Shown piece after piece: positions 54,280 to 61,149 of a stretch of 64,000 bases of DNA; within the stretch, counting starts at the first letter, position 1; each line of letters starts with the position of its first letter. The stretch comes from Martinezella lusitana (GTDB lineage: Bacteria > Pseudomonadota > Alphaproteobacteria > Rhizobiales > Rhizobiaceae), in the NCBI RefSeq assembly GCF_900094565.1, contig NZ_FMAF01000013.1, positions 62,001-126,000 on the forward strand, given 5' to 3'. A program made the translations under genes and the position numbers. A model generated the notes under the pieces. It had not been told where the DNA came from and did no database searches. It worked only from the letters and a program-made list of their open reading frames with translations.

Positions 54280-54326
54280 TGGAGCGGGTGAAGGGAATCG
54301 AACCCTCGTATTCAGCTTGGGAAGCT
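54280..54326 (-). other. 3' half of tRNA-Gly(CCC), predicted attachment site
   Basis: On the minus strand this is the last 47 nt of a glycine tRNA: anticodon loop TTCCCAA (anticodon CCC), GCTGA stem, T-arm GAGGGTTCGATTCCCTT, acceptor strand CACCCGC and CCA. The 5' half is missing, and the sequence to the right does not fold as its D arm. This is the usual scar where an element has inserted in a tRNA 3' end. The intact tRNA should lie at the other (right) end of the element. Confidence 0.82.
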
Positions 54327-54526: not shown

Positions 54527-54715
54527 ATGAATGCCGCCGAGCTTAAGAAGCTTCTCACCAAAAATGGCTGCAAATTCGAGAACCATCGCGGCGGTAGCGG
54601 TCACATAACCGTCAGACGTGGGGAACGTATCAGCGTGATGCCCGTTCATGGGAGTAGTAAGGAACTGGGCAAAGGTCTCGTCGCTAAAATTCTAAAAGAC
54701 CTAGGGATAAAATAA
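54527..54715 (+). CDS. hicA: HicA family mRNA-interferase toxin
   Basis: A 62-aa toxin with a double-stranded RNA-binding-like fold that cleaves mRNA and arrests growth. The catalytic His is His26 in HRGGSGHITVRRGER, and the C-terminal MPVHGSSKELGKGLVAKILK is the family signature. The ATG follows AAAGG at suitable distance. The stop overlaps the hicB start by 1 bp, as in other hicAB operons. Confidence 0.93.
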   Translation: MNAAELKKLLTKNGCKFENHRGGSGHITVRRGERISVMPVHGSSKELGKGLVAKILKDLGIK

Positions 54716-55167
54716 TGGGCAGGTATTATGAACTCACGATCGCAATGGATGAGGCTGAGGACGGCACTCATTCTTGGATGGTAACGGCACCAGCATTTCC
54801 GGAAGTCACCACCTTCGGAGATACGCAGCCAGAAGCTTGCCTTGAAGGTCTGAAGGCGATTGAGGAAGCGATCTCCGCTCGCATTGCGGCTGGAGAGGAT
54901 CTTCCCCTGCCGCTTGATAGCTCCAATGGCATTGTTCGCTCCGTAGAGGTTCCGCTGCTAACCTATTTCAAATGCGCACTGTATATGATCTGCAGATTCA
55001 AGGACGTTTCACGCGCAGATTTGGCGCGCCGTCTCGGCTGGCATCGAGAACAGGTGGATCGATTATTCAGGATCGACCACAAATCACAGATTGACCAAAT
55101 TGAGGCGGCTTTCAAGGCTATAGATGTGTCTATTGGAGTAGACATCCCTCTTCCTCAAGCTGCATAA
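54715..55167 (+). CDS. hicB: HicB family antitoxin with C-terminal DNA-binding domain
   Basis: A 150-aa antitoxin. The N-terminal HicB domain has YYELTIAMDEAEDGTHSWMV, PAFPEVTTFGDTQPEACLEG and LKAIEEAISARIAAGE. The C-terminal part is a helix-turn-helix (VSRADLARRLGWHREQVDRL then IEAAFKAIDVSIGV). HicB neutralises HicA and represses the operon. The start overlaps hicA by 1 bp. A good hairpin terminator follows. Confidence 0.93.
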   Translation: MGRYYELTIAMDEAEDGTHSWMVTAPAFPEVTTFGDTQPEACLEGLKAIEEAISARIAAGEDLPLPLDSSNGIVRSVEVPLLTYFKCALYMICRFKDVSRADLARRLGWHREQVDRLFRIDHKSQIDQIEAAFKAIDVSIGVDIPLPQAA

Positions 55168-55179
55168 TCGCCAATGAGA

Positions 55180-55201
55180 AAACCCCGCTAATGCGGGGTT
55201 T
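55180..55201 (+). terminator. Intrinsic terminator of hicAB
   Basis: A 9-bp stem AAACCCCGC (55180-55188) and GCGGGGTTT (55193-55201) has a TAAT loop. It lies 13 bp after the hicB stop. The A-rich left arm makes it work for the opposite strand as well, where the ATPase gene ends at 55250. Confidence 0.85.
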
Positions 55202-55249: not shown

Positions 55250-56530
55250 TCAAACTCCGCCGAGGGAACTCAGCTTGGTGGACGAGCGCAGGAAAAAGAG
55301 GAAGTACGGTTCCAGGATATTCAGAATGTTCTCGTCCCATTCTAGGATTGGCACGCGAGGCGATAGGTTTTTTGAGAGCGGTGTATCCATCTGAGAAAGC
55401 GCCTGACTAATGCTCGAGCCAACCGGTTTCTCATCGATTGTTATGCGCTGTACACGATCGAGCAAGTTGTCATAGGTGAAAGTCAACTGAGGGGGGGCGT
55501 CGCTGATAGCTAGAAGCACTGATCTGTAAACGTCCCCAGTTGACCCGTCGCTAAAGCGAAATTGTTTCCGCTCCTGGCCGCGCTCTTTTGGTCCAGAGTG
55601 TAGGCCGTCGACTACGGAGGAATAATCCGACATCGCCGAGGTCCGTTCGAATGTTCGCGCAAGATCCGCCTCATTCACCTCGATTCGCGCCATCTGATCA
55701 AGTTGTTCCGTGACGGCTTTCTCGCGGCACAAGTTGAGGCAAAGGCTTTGCATCAACTGCGGGCTACCAAATGCTTCGGCTGCAAGTCGCTCAATAACAG
55801 AATTAGCTAGGTCGATATTCAACTTCGGGAACCCTAATTTCCCGATGACTTGAAGCTCGTTGATATCCCAATAACCGATATTAACCGCCGCAATTCGACC
55901 ACTTAACTCTGGGTTGCTTCGAACCACGTCATCTGATCTGTGGGGGACAGATGCCGCACAAATTTTAACGCCCCGCTCGGCAGCGAACTTTACCTGTCTG
56001 CCAAGTTCACCTTGGACATCCTTGGGAATGTAATGGAAGTCATCGATGAAGAGTATGAAATCGCTGTTGGCAATCTCTGCGATCACGCCCGGAAGGCCGC
56101 CGACCCGCCGAGTTTTAGTGACAGCAGAACTCCCTGTTAACGAAGAAGTTAGCGAGCCCGTTGCCTCTCCCTTGACCAGTATCGCCGAAATGCCACCTTT
56201 CATACTGCCACTTATTGACCCTGTCGTCGCAGTTACGTCGGTCTCTGACTCGGTATCCGCTCCACCCATCCATTGGATCGCCTGATCCCAAAGATCATCT
56301 GCCTTGGTAATGGTGGCACCCGAAACGAGAATGATTAAGTTGGGATCGACGAGTTTGTGGATCAGTACAGACTTTCCAGCCTTCGATGGACCTGAAACCG
56401 ACGCAACTACCTTCGGGGTGTCTAGAGCGTCTCTTAGCAGTTCTTCAAGTTTCAAATCGCGTCGATCCACGTAAGTGTGAACCGGCGTGTCATTAGGTGT
56501 AAAAACTTCTGTCGCGCGCAATTTTGACAT
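55250..56530 (-). CDS. P-loop ATPase of unknown function with Gly/Ser/Thr-rich insert
   Basis: A 426-aa cytoplasmic ATPase. Walker A is ASVSGPSKAGKSVLIHKL (Gly47-Ser54) and Walker B is SDFILFIDDFHYIPKD (Asp163/164), with a sensor-like VKICAASVPHRSDD next. Between them (about 98-140) lies a low-complexity insert, TATTGSISGSMKGGISAILV followed by KGEATGSLTSSLTGSS. The C-terminal helical half has AEAFGSPQLMQSLCLNLC, a STAND/AAA-like winged helix. It stands alone between hicAB and the SEC-C gene. I recall similar ATPases in mobile islands, but no function can be assigned. The ATG at 56530 follows GGGGATTGAA. Confidence 0.72.
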   Translation of the reverse strand: MSKLRATEVFTPNDTPVHTYVDRRDLKLEELLRDALDTPKVVASVSGPSKAGKSVLIHKLVDPNLIILVSGATITKADDLWDQAIQWMGGADTESETDVTATTGSISGSMKGGISAILVKGEATGSLTSSLTGSSAVTKTRRVGGLPGVIAEIANSDFILFIDDFHYIPKDVQGELGRQVKFAAERGVKICAASVPHRSDDVVRSNPELSGRIAAVNIGYWDINELQVIGKLGFPKLNIDLANSVIERLAAEAFGSPQLMQSLCLNLCREKAVTEQLDQMARIEVNEADLARTFERTSAMSDYSSVVDGLHSGPKERGQERKQFRFSDGSTGDVYRSVLLAISDAPPQLTFTYDNLLDRVQRITIDEKPVGSSISQALSQMDTPLSKNLSPRVPILEWDENILNILEPYFLFFLRSSTKLSSLGGV

Positions 56531-56943: not shown

Positions 56944-57855
56944 ATGGGCGAAGCAAAACGAAAAAGAGAAGCCGTCTTGAATGGGCCATGCCCTTGTGGG
57001 TCAACGAAAGCATCTCGGCTCTGCTGTTTCAATGGTCGCGACTGGCATAAGCCGCCGGCCGTTCTCGGCCTAAAGTCGCTTCCGCCGGCGTCTCAAGTTG
57101 AGAAGTGCTATATGCGTGAACTCGGTTCATGCGTCGCTCCCATTTCCGGCGAGCATTTGATTTCACAGTCGGTAATCGAGATATTGAAAGACGACGGTGA
57201 ATTCACAATCAGCGGCATGCCGTGGCAGGAAGCGGGCGAGGAAAAGATACTCGCACCGCAGAGCCTTCGAACAAACTGCCTTTGCGTCAAGCATAACAGT
57301 GCGCTGCATCGCCTTGATGATGCTGCCAGCTATCTATTTGGCTCTCTCAAGTCATTTCTTGAATGTGACAACGGATTCAGACATGCAATCGTAGCGGGTC
57401 ACGACATTGAGCGCTGGCTGCTGAAAACAGCTAAAGCCTTCGCTGTCTCGGGCAATTTCGCACGGGGGAGAGCGCCCCTGTCCGGCGTTTTCTCACAGAG
57501 CACCGGCGTGTTGGATATGCTCGATAACCCGCACCAATGGGCGAACGGTGCGGGCCTCTACTGCTTGATGAAGACCGGCGATCTCGCCGAAAATCACAAA
57601 CGGTTCCAGCTCCAACCTCTTACCAACGATAGAGACGAAATCGAGGCGCTGCAGCTCAACATTTTGGGTCTATCATTCATACTACAACTCGCGCCATTCG
57701 ACGCTACGAAGCATGCGTATTTGCAAGGAGCACAATTCCGCCCCGGACGTATCCTCGTTTGTTACCCGAAATCAACAAACTGGCTCACTCTAAGTTGGGT
57801 GGACGGGCATGTGCACAAGGAGATGACACTGCATTACCAAGGCCCAGCGCCTTGA
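56944..57855 (+). CDS. SEC-C motif protein with HNH-like Cys/His cluster
   Basis: A 303-aa protein. The N terminus has a SEC-C zinc motif, GPCPCGSTKASRLCCFNG (Cys16, Cys18, Cys27, Cys28), after a basic GEAKRKREA. A second cluster follows: KCYMRELGSC, PISGEHLISQSVIEIL and NCLCVKHNSALHRLD, which match an HNH-nuclease finger (C-x-C pair, EH, then C-x-C..HN). The rest is helical and unassigned. The HNH assignment is inference. It is in the island next to the ATPase gene and ends at a hairpin shared with the lysis cassette. Confidence 0.65.
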   Translation: MGEAKRKREAVLNGPCPCGSTKASRLCCFNGRDWHKPPAVLGLKSLPPASQVEKCYMRELGSCVAPISGEHLISQSVIEILKDDGEFTISGMPWQEAGEEKILAPQSLRTNCLCVKHNSALHRLDDAASYLFGSLKSFLECDNGFRHAIVAGHDIERWLLKTAKAFAVSGNFARGRAPLSGVFSQSTGVLDMLDNPHQWANGAGLYCLMKTGDLAENHKRFQLQPLTNDRDEIEALQLNILGLSFILQLAPFDATKHAYLQGAQFRPGRILVCYPKSTNWLTLSWVDGHVHKEMTLHYQGPAP

Positions 57856-60079: not shown

Positions 60080-60279
60080 CCGCCCCGGCGGGCTCTCTGG
60101 CTAACGCAACCAAAGACGACGAAAATAACGTATCGGATGGGCATCCCCTGGCCCCCTAGAAAAATAGTGGCCCAACAGCACAATTGACGTGAGTATTCCG
60201 CGATCATAATGGGACGCTAACCGATTGCAAATTTTACACACACAACTGAATATTCAGATTGTTAATATCGGGAGAAAGC

Positions 60280-61149
60280 ATGATTTCCTTGCTCCACACA
60301 CTGTTGGAACTCGGCCACTCCACCTCGCAGAACTTGGAATTCGCTCATTCGCCCGATGTAAAGGTCAGCTACGGAGAAGAGACGATTACTGAAACGAATT
60401 TGCTGGAGATCAGGCGGCGCCATCCGCACAAAGTGACACTGCTGACATTTTCAAAATCGCAGGAAAGCAAGAACACCGGGGCCGACTGGGAGTGGCATAT
60501 TATCGGAAAAGTCTACACGCTGAAGATGCGCGTACAAGCCAAGAGAATTCATAAGGCCGGCGGAATTGGAAACCTGAGGCAGATGGGCAAAGGAGCCGCC
60601 AAACCGCAGATAGATTTGCTCATTGAAGATGCAAAAGCGAACGGTCTCTTTCCTGCATACTGCTTTTATTGCGCCGAACCCCAAAGGTCTTACTGGGTGA
60701 AGGGAACCGTAGAAGAAGAAGCCGAAGCGTTCGAAACCGGTTGCCTGATTGCGGACGCTGAAACTGTGAAATCACAAACGCCAAAAAAACTTGATGAGAT
60801 CGAAAACGATACCGTTCCCTGGCATTTTTTGTGTGCGAGACACAAGTTCTCATCGAGTCGAGGCCCCTATATTAGGCGATTTCAGGAAGACGTTCCGATT
60901 GAGCGATATGTCGGGCAATTTGTAGAAGAAGTCATCCCGTCCTATGAAGAGCGCGCGACCAATATTGGACTGCCTACGATCTTCCAGCTGAACGACAGGC
61001 GCTCTAGGCTTGACGAGAGAAAAGGGATATCCCGCACGCCTGAGGTCGTCGATAAAGAGATCATTCCAGAGGATTTTGAAAGGCGCGGAATAACCAGATT
61101 TTTAAGGATCGACATGCGGAAACCCGATCTGTTTGCGATAAGAGCCTGA
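60280..61149 (+). CDS. DUF6615-like protein with a PD-(D/E)XK-type signature
   Basis: A 289-aa protein. The N-terminal region has SYGEETITETNLLEIRRRHP, KNTGADWEWHIIGKVYTLKM and RVQAKRIHKAGGIG. The order E34, D69-x-E71, then Q86-A-K88 fits a PD-(D/E)XK nuclease core. A Cys-rich segment (AYCFYCAEPQRSYWV) and later HFLCARHKF suggest a zinc site. I recall such sequences as DUF6615. The ATG at 60280 has GGGAGAAAGC upstream. It is an isolated gene between the DUF2442 and tail genes. Nuclease activity is inferred. Confidence 0.68.
   Translation: MISLLHTLLELGHSTSQNLEFAHSPDVKVSYGEETITETNLLEIRRRHPHKVTLLTFSKSQESKNTGADWEWHIIGKVYTLKMRVQAKRIHKAGGIGNLRQMGKGAAKPQIDLLIEDAKANGLFPAYCFYCAEPQRSYWVKGTVEEEAEAFETGCLIADAETVKSQTPKKLDEIENDTVPWHFLCARHKFSSSRGPYIRRFQEDVPIERYVGQFVEEVIPSYEERATNIGLPTIFQLNDRRSRLDERKGISRTPEVVDKEIIPEDFERRGITRFLRIDMRKPDLFAIRA

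Follow-up and report, generated by a model that had tools for sequence, protein, structure and literature searches.

The analysed window is a 64,000-nucleotide stretch of a contig of Martinezella lusitana (Rhizobiaceae), in which an earlier note had pointed to a lone P-loop ATPase gene. The open reading frame is real and intact, coding for a protein of 426 amino acids (P0001), and is now assigned to the minus strand, the note having given no strand; a TTG located 24 bases upstream of the ATG is a possible alternative start. The gene stands alone, being convergent with a hicAB pair and divergent from the gene at 56944–57855 (Table 1). A perfect inverted repeat between the convergent hicB-like and ATPase genes is, judged by eye, a possible shared terminator and is not among the sites of the terminator scan; both promoter and terminator scans returned sites no more numerous than in shuffled sequences.

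The suggestion that this region is a cargo zone is supported by the finding of a prophage border. The border consists of a 44-bp tRNA-Gly 3' end, the only other exact copy of which in the genome is the intact tRNA-Gly(ccc) on a different contig, as expected if the two copies mark the ends of an integrated element. The ATPase gene lies ~0.9–1 kb inside this border and, rightward of the border, ten picked ORFs match endolysin, tail, tape-measure, baseplate, large terminase, replication and other phage families. The identical protein is also encoded on an IMG/VR viral contig (L002), which probably stems from the same genome as P0001. The hicA and HicB-like genes, located at the extreme prophage edge, were named as neighbours in the earlier note; the second neighbour at 56944–57855 had been called nuclease-like, a label that rests on sequence motifs. 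The start of this gene is Cys-rich and SEC-C-like, and a possible HNH-like pattern (GEH...C..H) can be made out by eye. The hicAB DNA (54527–55167) has a 76% identical stretch on a Sinorhizobium mexicanum plasmid and the 56944 gene has a DNA relative on a Bosea plasmid, and these separate plasmid relatives suggest that this prophage end is a mosaic. According to a passage of PMC9122126, P2-like phages keep defence genes in hotspots. In the phage late region, the DUF6615-matching gene is another possible cargo gene.

Table 1. Features at the prophage border and within the ATPase gene (positions are those of the window; residue numbers refer to P0001)
Feature	Position	Strand	Basis or remark
tRNA-Gly 3' end, 44 bp, prophage attachment border	54280–54323	minus	exact-copy search
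HicA	54527–54715	plus	Pfam, E 3e-13
HicB-like gene	54715–55167	plus	sub-threshold match only
Perfect inverted repeat CCCCGC/GCGGGG	55183–55198		
PDC-S59-type ATPase gene (P0001)	55250–56530	minus	intact ORF, 426 aa; ATG at 56530, stop at 55250
GSP (255–257) of the conserved GSPQLMQ motif	55760–55768	minus	alignment
R212, possible arginine finger	55895–55897	minus	invariant in 86 rows
Walker B region, residues 159–164	56039–56056	minus	sequence and alignment A3
Insert, residues 92–143, amphipathic beta-hairpin	56102–56257	minus	family columns, covariation, AlphaFold2
Distal hairpin, residues 106–127, outer face nearly charge-free, apolar tip 116–119	56150–56215	minus	86-row alignment
Walker A, GPSKAGKS, residues 47–54	56369–56392	minus	sequence and alignment A3
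Gene at 56944	56944–57855	plus	weak SEC-C hint; no Pfam family above cut-off
DUF6615-matching gene	60259–61149	plus	E 3.5e-7

While the earlier note held that nothing names the gene, PADLOC does: the protein matches the model PDC-S59 (PDLC05049; E 8.4e-32, residues 6–291), which carries no description. The family is thus already listed in PADLOC, as a defence candidate only. PDC stands for "phage defence candidate" in the wording of a passage of PMC11514479; the term is absent from the searched passages of the PADLOC papers PMC9252829 and PMC8565338. The name PDC-S59 occurs in none of the open-licence papers searched, and among the matches listed from such papers no activity test of the family was found; likewise, the titles and abstract openings of the matches listed in literature searches hold nothing on it. 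PHROG 6841, a phage family of unknown function, matches residues 7–307 (E 3.3e-10). With the sequence of P0001, Pfam yields almost nothing (AAA_16 at E 0.095) and the NCBIfam profiles give no match.

Relatives were collected from viral contigs (25 loci including the own locus), genome contigs (the best 80 of 117 candidates kept), plasmids (13, five of which cover at least 80% of the query) and phage records (one). They belong to Pseudomonadota, Myxococcota, Acidobacteriota, Bacillota, Bacteroidota, two archaea and others. From the 113 loci parsed, two alignments were built—A2, consisting of P0001 and 88 chosen full-length relatives, and A3, consisting of P0001 and 85 relatives (86 rows)—from both of which duplicates, fragments and the distant L111–L113 had been removed by hand. 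The PDC-S59 profile is matched by all 89 rows of A2, P0001 included.

The presence of Walker A (GPSKAGKS) and Walker B (FILFIDD, residues 158–164) confirms the protein as a P-loop ATPase, and G47, K50, G52, K53, D163, D164, H166 and R212 are identical in all 86 rows of A3. R212 may correspond in position to the RuvB-type arginine finger, which is located in a similar motif, and as a possible arginine finger it would fit ring assembly; the GSP at residues 255–257 resembles what we take to be the GxP motif of STAND ATPases. AlphaFold2, run with the 86 rows, gave a model of mean pLDDT 89.5 and pTM 0.84. In this model the fold of the core resembles that of Orc/Cdc6- and STAND-type ATPases, C-terminal part included. 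The best match is 2qen (Z 18.9, rmsd 5.5, 305 aligned residues); others include Cdc6/Orc (Z 17.3 and 17.1), the NRC4 resistosome (13.2) and TnsC and MuB (~13), while the matches in a library of viral structures are chiefly clamp-loader-like and other ATPases. Sequence searches for close solved relatives gave none that was convincing. Over the whole group of 2qen, 2fna (both archaeal ATPases, which we take to be of the STAND type) and Cdc6/Orc1, the overall fold is the same (Z 16–19, rmsd 5.5–8), but sequence identity to P0001 is just 12–19%, and P0001 lacks a DNA-initiation context. We know of no comparable long amphipathic hairpin in any of them. Pfam families found in the 86 members at E<=0.001 are of the AAA type only, and the C-terminal repeat sensor and separate effector of classical multidomain STAND proteins are missing from the 426 residues; the protein is, therefore, termed STAND-like and not a classical STAND ATPase.

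The insert between the Walker motifs, which had been described as unusual and low-complexity, is Gly/Ser/Thr-rich and placed as reported, but it is better bounded by residues 92–143 than by 98–140, and instead of being a peculiarity of P0001 it is an amphipathic hairpin throughout the family. Over the 86 rows, G, A, S and T make up ~52% of the insert versus ~26% of the remaining protein, and Cys occurs in the insert of one row (L106). The distance between the GK[ST] motif and the Walker B acid is 105–112 residues in 85 of the 86 rows; in the sole outlier, L006 with 147, the count seems to start from an earlier GKT near the N-terminus. Sequence identity within the insert is 15%, compared with 31–56% in the other regions (32 representatives of <50% identity). 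What is retained is a face pattern: polar and apolar-small residues alternate strictly in columns 103–116 and 119–132, which flank the apolar tip. This alternation is the strongest among windows with high column variability, and its phase is kept in 27 of the 28 scorable representatives (four of the 32 were dropped for gaps), with means of 3.24 and 3.12 against a shuffle standard deviation of ~0.28. Some conserved windows outside the insert, such as 203–215, alternate equally or more strongly. The two strands mirror each other, with r 0.83 at i+j=235 and 0.77 at 233.

Charges covary between the strands as in a ladder along i+j=233, a diagonal that holds seven of the nine strongest negative charge pairs. 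Strongest is the pair 109–124 (r -0.84; 48 opposite, 1 same), with further pairs at 93–140, 113–120, 105–128, 103–130, 111–122 and 107–126, and there is a weaker signal at 235. None of 1000 shuffles was equally low, and the 32 representatives alone gave the same result. Residue-volume covariation between the strands showed no register. On the outer face, charge is found in 19–41% of rows at positions 92–102 and in 22–41% at 133–143, falling to 9–16% at 104, 129 and 131 and to 0–6% at 106–127. For the inner face, the mean is 4.4 charges at its 12 distal positions and the net charge is near zero, which argues against DNA binding. At the 14 outer distal positions, 54 of the 86 rows have no charge, 18 have one, nine have two and five have three or four. 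The apolar face is mild for a membrane, being chiefly composed of Ala, Gly and Val. By our estimate, strands of 10–11 residues tilted by ~37 degrees span ~26–29 angstroms, approximately the membrane core, and the distal residues 106–127 are proposed as the membrane-spanning part of the hairpin. Taken together, the insert is not mere disorder but has, as judged from the family columns, the pattern of an amphipathic beta-hairpin that spans a membrane.

Structure prediction including the insert, a check which the earlier note had proposed, shows the hairpin base (93–105/130–142) folded and the tip (107–130) at pLDDT <50; for a second member, the same topology was obtained with most of the hairpin below 50. 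The predicted hairpin register is 235, two apart from the strongest charge register, 233. Single sequences show the pattern less clearly: with shuffles within the insert, alternation reaches p 0.16 for P0001 and p<=0.05 in 10 of the 32 representatives. A hairpin scan based on hydropathy only placed the best hairpin inside the insert in 29 of the 86 members, nine of the 86 lying above the 95th percentile of the background, and family members scored much like other proteins (median 3.80 versus 3.55). Applied to barrel-family frames of L114 and L115 as an outer-membrane control, the scan scored 2.95 and 4.49 versus the background median of 3.55; hence, it misses true barrels too. Given this and the weak single-sequence statistics, we rely on family-wide columns and covariation.

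Several relatives depart from the pattern. The features sought in a beta-barrel former—an amphipathic hairpin with an apolar tip and a charge-poor, apolar face as long as a membrane span—are present across the family, with five of the 86 rows (L056, L067, L069, L080 and L093) breaking the charge pattern through three or four outer charges. L069 and L080 are the sole archaeal rows, while L056 and L067 belong to a myxobacterial clade whose remaining four rows carry two outer charges each. Outside the 86 rows, the GK[ST]-to-Walker B distance is shorter in L110 (96), L111 (91) and L019 (65 residues) and longer in the distant L112 and L126 (114 each); in the phage member L120, the insert is also short by eye, and in the distant L126 and L127 inspection by eye suggests that a hairpin-like insert ending in an apolar tip is retained. 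L019, located on the Selenomonas plasmid pSRC6 (5001–6137), has lost the hairpin and has DG in place of DD in Walker B, so that it looks as if inactivated; its near relative L097 has both the hairpin and the Walker B DD. L019 lies near another AAA ATPase and R-M genes.

The combination of a hairpin of fixed length and free sequence, a membrane-length span that is poor in charge and salt bridges on the opposite face leads us to propose, with slightly better than even confidence, that this prophage-borne, stand-alone AAA+/STAND-like ATPase acts as an infection-triggered pore former. In the resting state, the protein would be monomeric and soluble, its hairpin folded at the base and flexible at the tip. 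The C-terminal part would sense a phage cue, ATP binding would induce ring assembly, and the hairpins would zip into a beta-barrel, putatively in the cytoplasmic membrane. Loss of the membrane potential would then stop the infected cell before phage release. The full pattern is rare here in single-membrane hosts, examples being Pseudobutyrivibrio L085, which has no outer charge, and the Niallia plasmid member L020, assigned by eye. The two registers, strong at 233 and weak at 235, are two apart, which fits a barrel whose shear number equals its strand number, one register for the interface within a subunit and one for that between subunits; this is not proof, given that a diagonal contact within one hairpin equally gives an offset of two residues. 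If the proposal is true, sequence written off as low complexity can have a function that only family-wide patterns reveal, and an unexplained listed candidate, PDC-S59, gains a testable mechanism.

The principal rival places the hairpin outside the membrane, as an elongated helix-2-type AAA+ insert that grips a phage or host protein within the ring, the partner being remodelled or sensed. Helix-2 inserts of other AAA+ proteins occupy a comparable position, and in the predicted model the hairpin is located between helices 77–87 and 146–153, directly before the Walker B strand. This reading also explains the amphipathicity, the apolar tip and the members with a charged outer face. It sits badly with the 15% identity, at which only the face pattern is retained, unlike in a specific binding loop, and with a charge-poor stretch of ~10 residues per strand that is symmetric and of membrane-span size; we regard it as less likely than the pore former, but as deserving serious consideration.

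The proposed pore former would share a principle with bacterial gasdermins, other beta-barrel pore formers and plant resistosomes, namely a triggered oligomer, a pore and death. Gasdermins are not known to have an ATPase and resistosomes use N-terminal helices, while in P0001 the proposed pore element is a beta-hairpin inside the ATPase domain. Bacterial gasdermin systems are distinguished by an adjacent protease gene; here, no partner recurs in more than five of 102 loci.

Whole-genome searches additionally revealed two related ATPases, L113 (E 4.6e-13) and L131 (E 1.9e-12, the same gene as L128), one from the same bacterial family as the host and the other from the same order. They share with PDC-S59 a related ATPase core and plasmid carriage but, unlike PDC-S59, are without the hairpin, the GK[ST]-to-Walker B distance being 44 residues as compared with 105–112. 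A C-terminal TIR domain was detected in L113 (E 4e-8), and L131 shares 44% identity with L113 over almost the entire length, including the TIR part. Five plasmid relatives align over 95–97% of L113 and are of near-equal length, so that no large insert is present; four of them are annotated as "TIR domain-containing protein" and one record is unannotated. The plasmid relatives of L113 and L131 come from Acetobacter, Azospirillum, Gloeothece, Curtobacterium and Pantoea. Conversely, Pfam detected neither TIR nor another effector family in the 86 hairpin members at E<=0.001; among the viral contigs, none with a TIR relative was found. These few independent cases give a hint that hairpin and TIR may be interchangeable effectors on one switch. 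A broader proposal, whose chances we put at a little under even, is that of a "beta-resistosome", a single-protein immune ATPase of many bacterial phyla with a pore hairpin inside the ATPase domain, for which a TIR domain could be exchanged; sensor, motor and executioner would be united in one 425-residue chain. If true, this would be a new killing route in which the immune ATPase itself becomes the pore and no separate effector is needed.

The interpretation in the earlier note is partly supported. A role as a single-gene anti-phage candidate is the best-supported one for the gene, with the PDC-S59 match, prophage and plasmid carriage, patchy spread and the missing recurrent partner speaking for it and the anti-phage activity itself being putative. 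The gene is present in five of 151 genomes of the host family and in eight of 347 of the host order, the own genome being counted in both. The tree of the 86 rows, 20 of which are without a group label, shows partial clustering by phylum but is mixed, with 19 group-label changes compared with a possible minimum of 14 and 34 in shuffles. L023, L027 and L031 are 83–86% identical, yet from different alphaproteobacterial families.

The gene neighbourhoods were analysed in 102 of the 113 loci, with 850 neighbour ORFs picked by a length-and-codon rule and not by a gene finder; no partner gene recurred in more than five loci. Among the five neighbour clusters that reach five loci, three are tail completion, baseplate and endolysin (PHROG match, one member each), one is scattered and one consists of fragments of the family's own gene; those in a fixed place are phage tail genes. 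For the defence context, 197 neighbours within two genes in the genome-contig loci were considered, from which 150 were selected and 137 scanned. PADLOC gave 51 families, and of the 25 listed none has more than three members, most being PD-T4-6 models; Pfam gave 91 families, and the 25 listed include DpnI, BsuBI/PstI and AbiTii, each as an isolated case. Given that known defence genes are rare among close neighbours, enrichment in defence islands is not claimed.

This scarcity, together with the location next to tail-completion and baseplate genes in five related prophages and the sharing of some neighbours within the myxobacterial clade, agrees with a phage moron or domesticated host gene that serves lysogeny or physiology instead of defence. 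We hold this to be improbable, since the gene also occurs on plasmids and in many phyla, outside that phage context, and is listed by PADLOC as a defence candidate. Highly improbable is a regulator of mobile elements of the TniB/TnsC-like AAA+ type, to which weak Pfam TniB matches in three of the 86 members and the fold similarity to TnsC and MuB point, but for which no linked transposase recurs in the neighbourhoods; to our knowledge, a hairpin of this kind is absent from TnsC and MuB.

Some myxobacterial loci have neighbours in common, as in vertically kept genes. Their clade (L047, L049, L055, L056, L065 and L067) has a more polar insert, with two to four charges on the outer face of each member, shares part of its neighbours and may be a vertically kept variant with a different role. 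In L040, L078, L095, L096, L104, L129 and L130, the family copies are apparently split or frameshifted, which may reflect a costly or dispensable gene or sequencing error.
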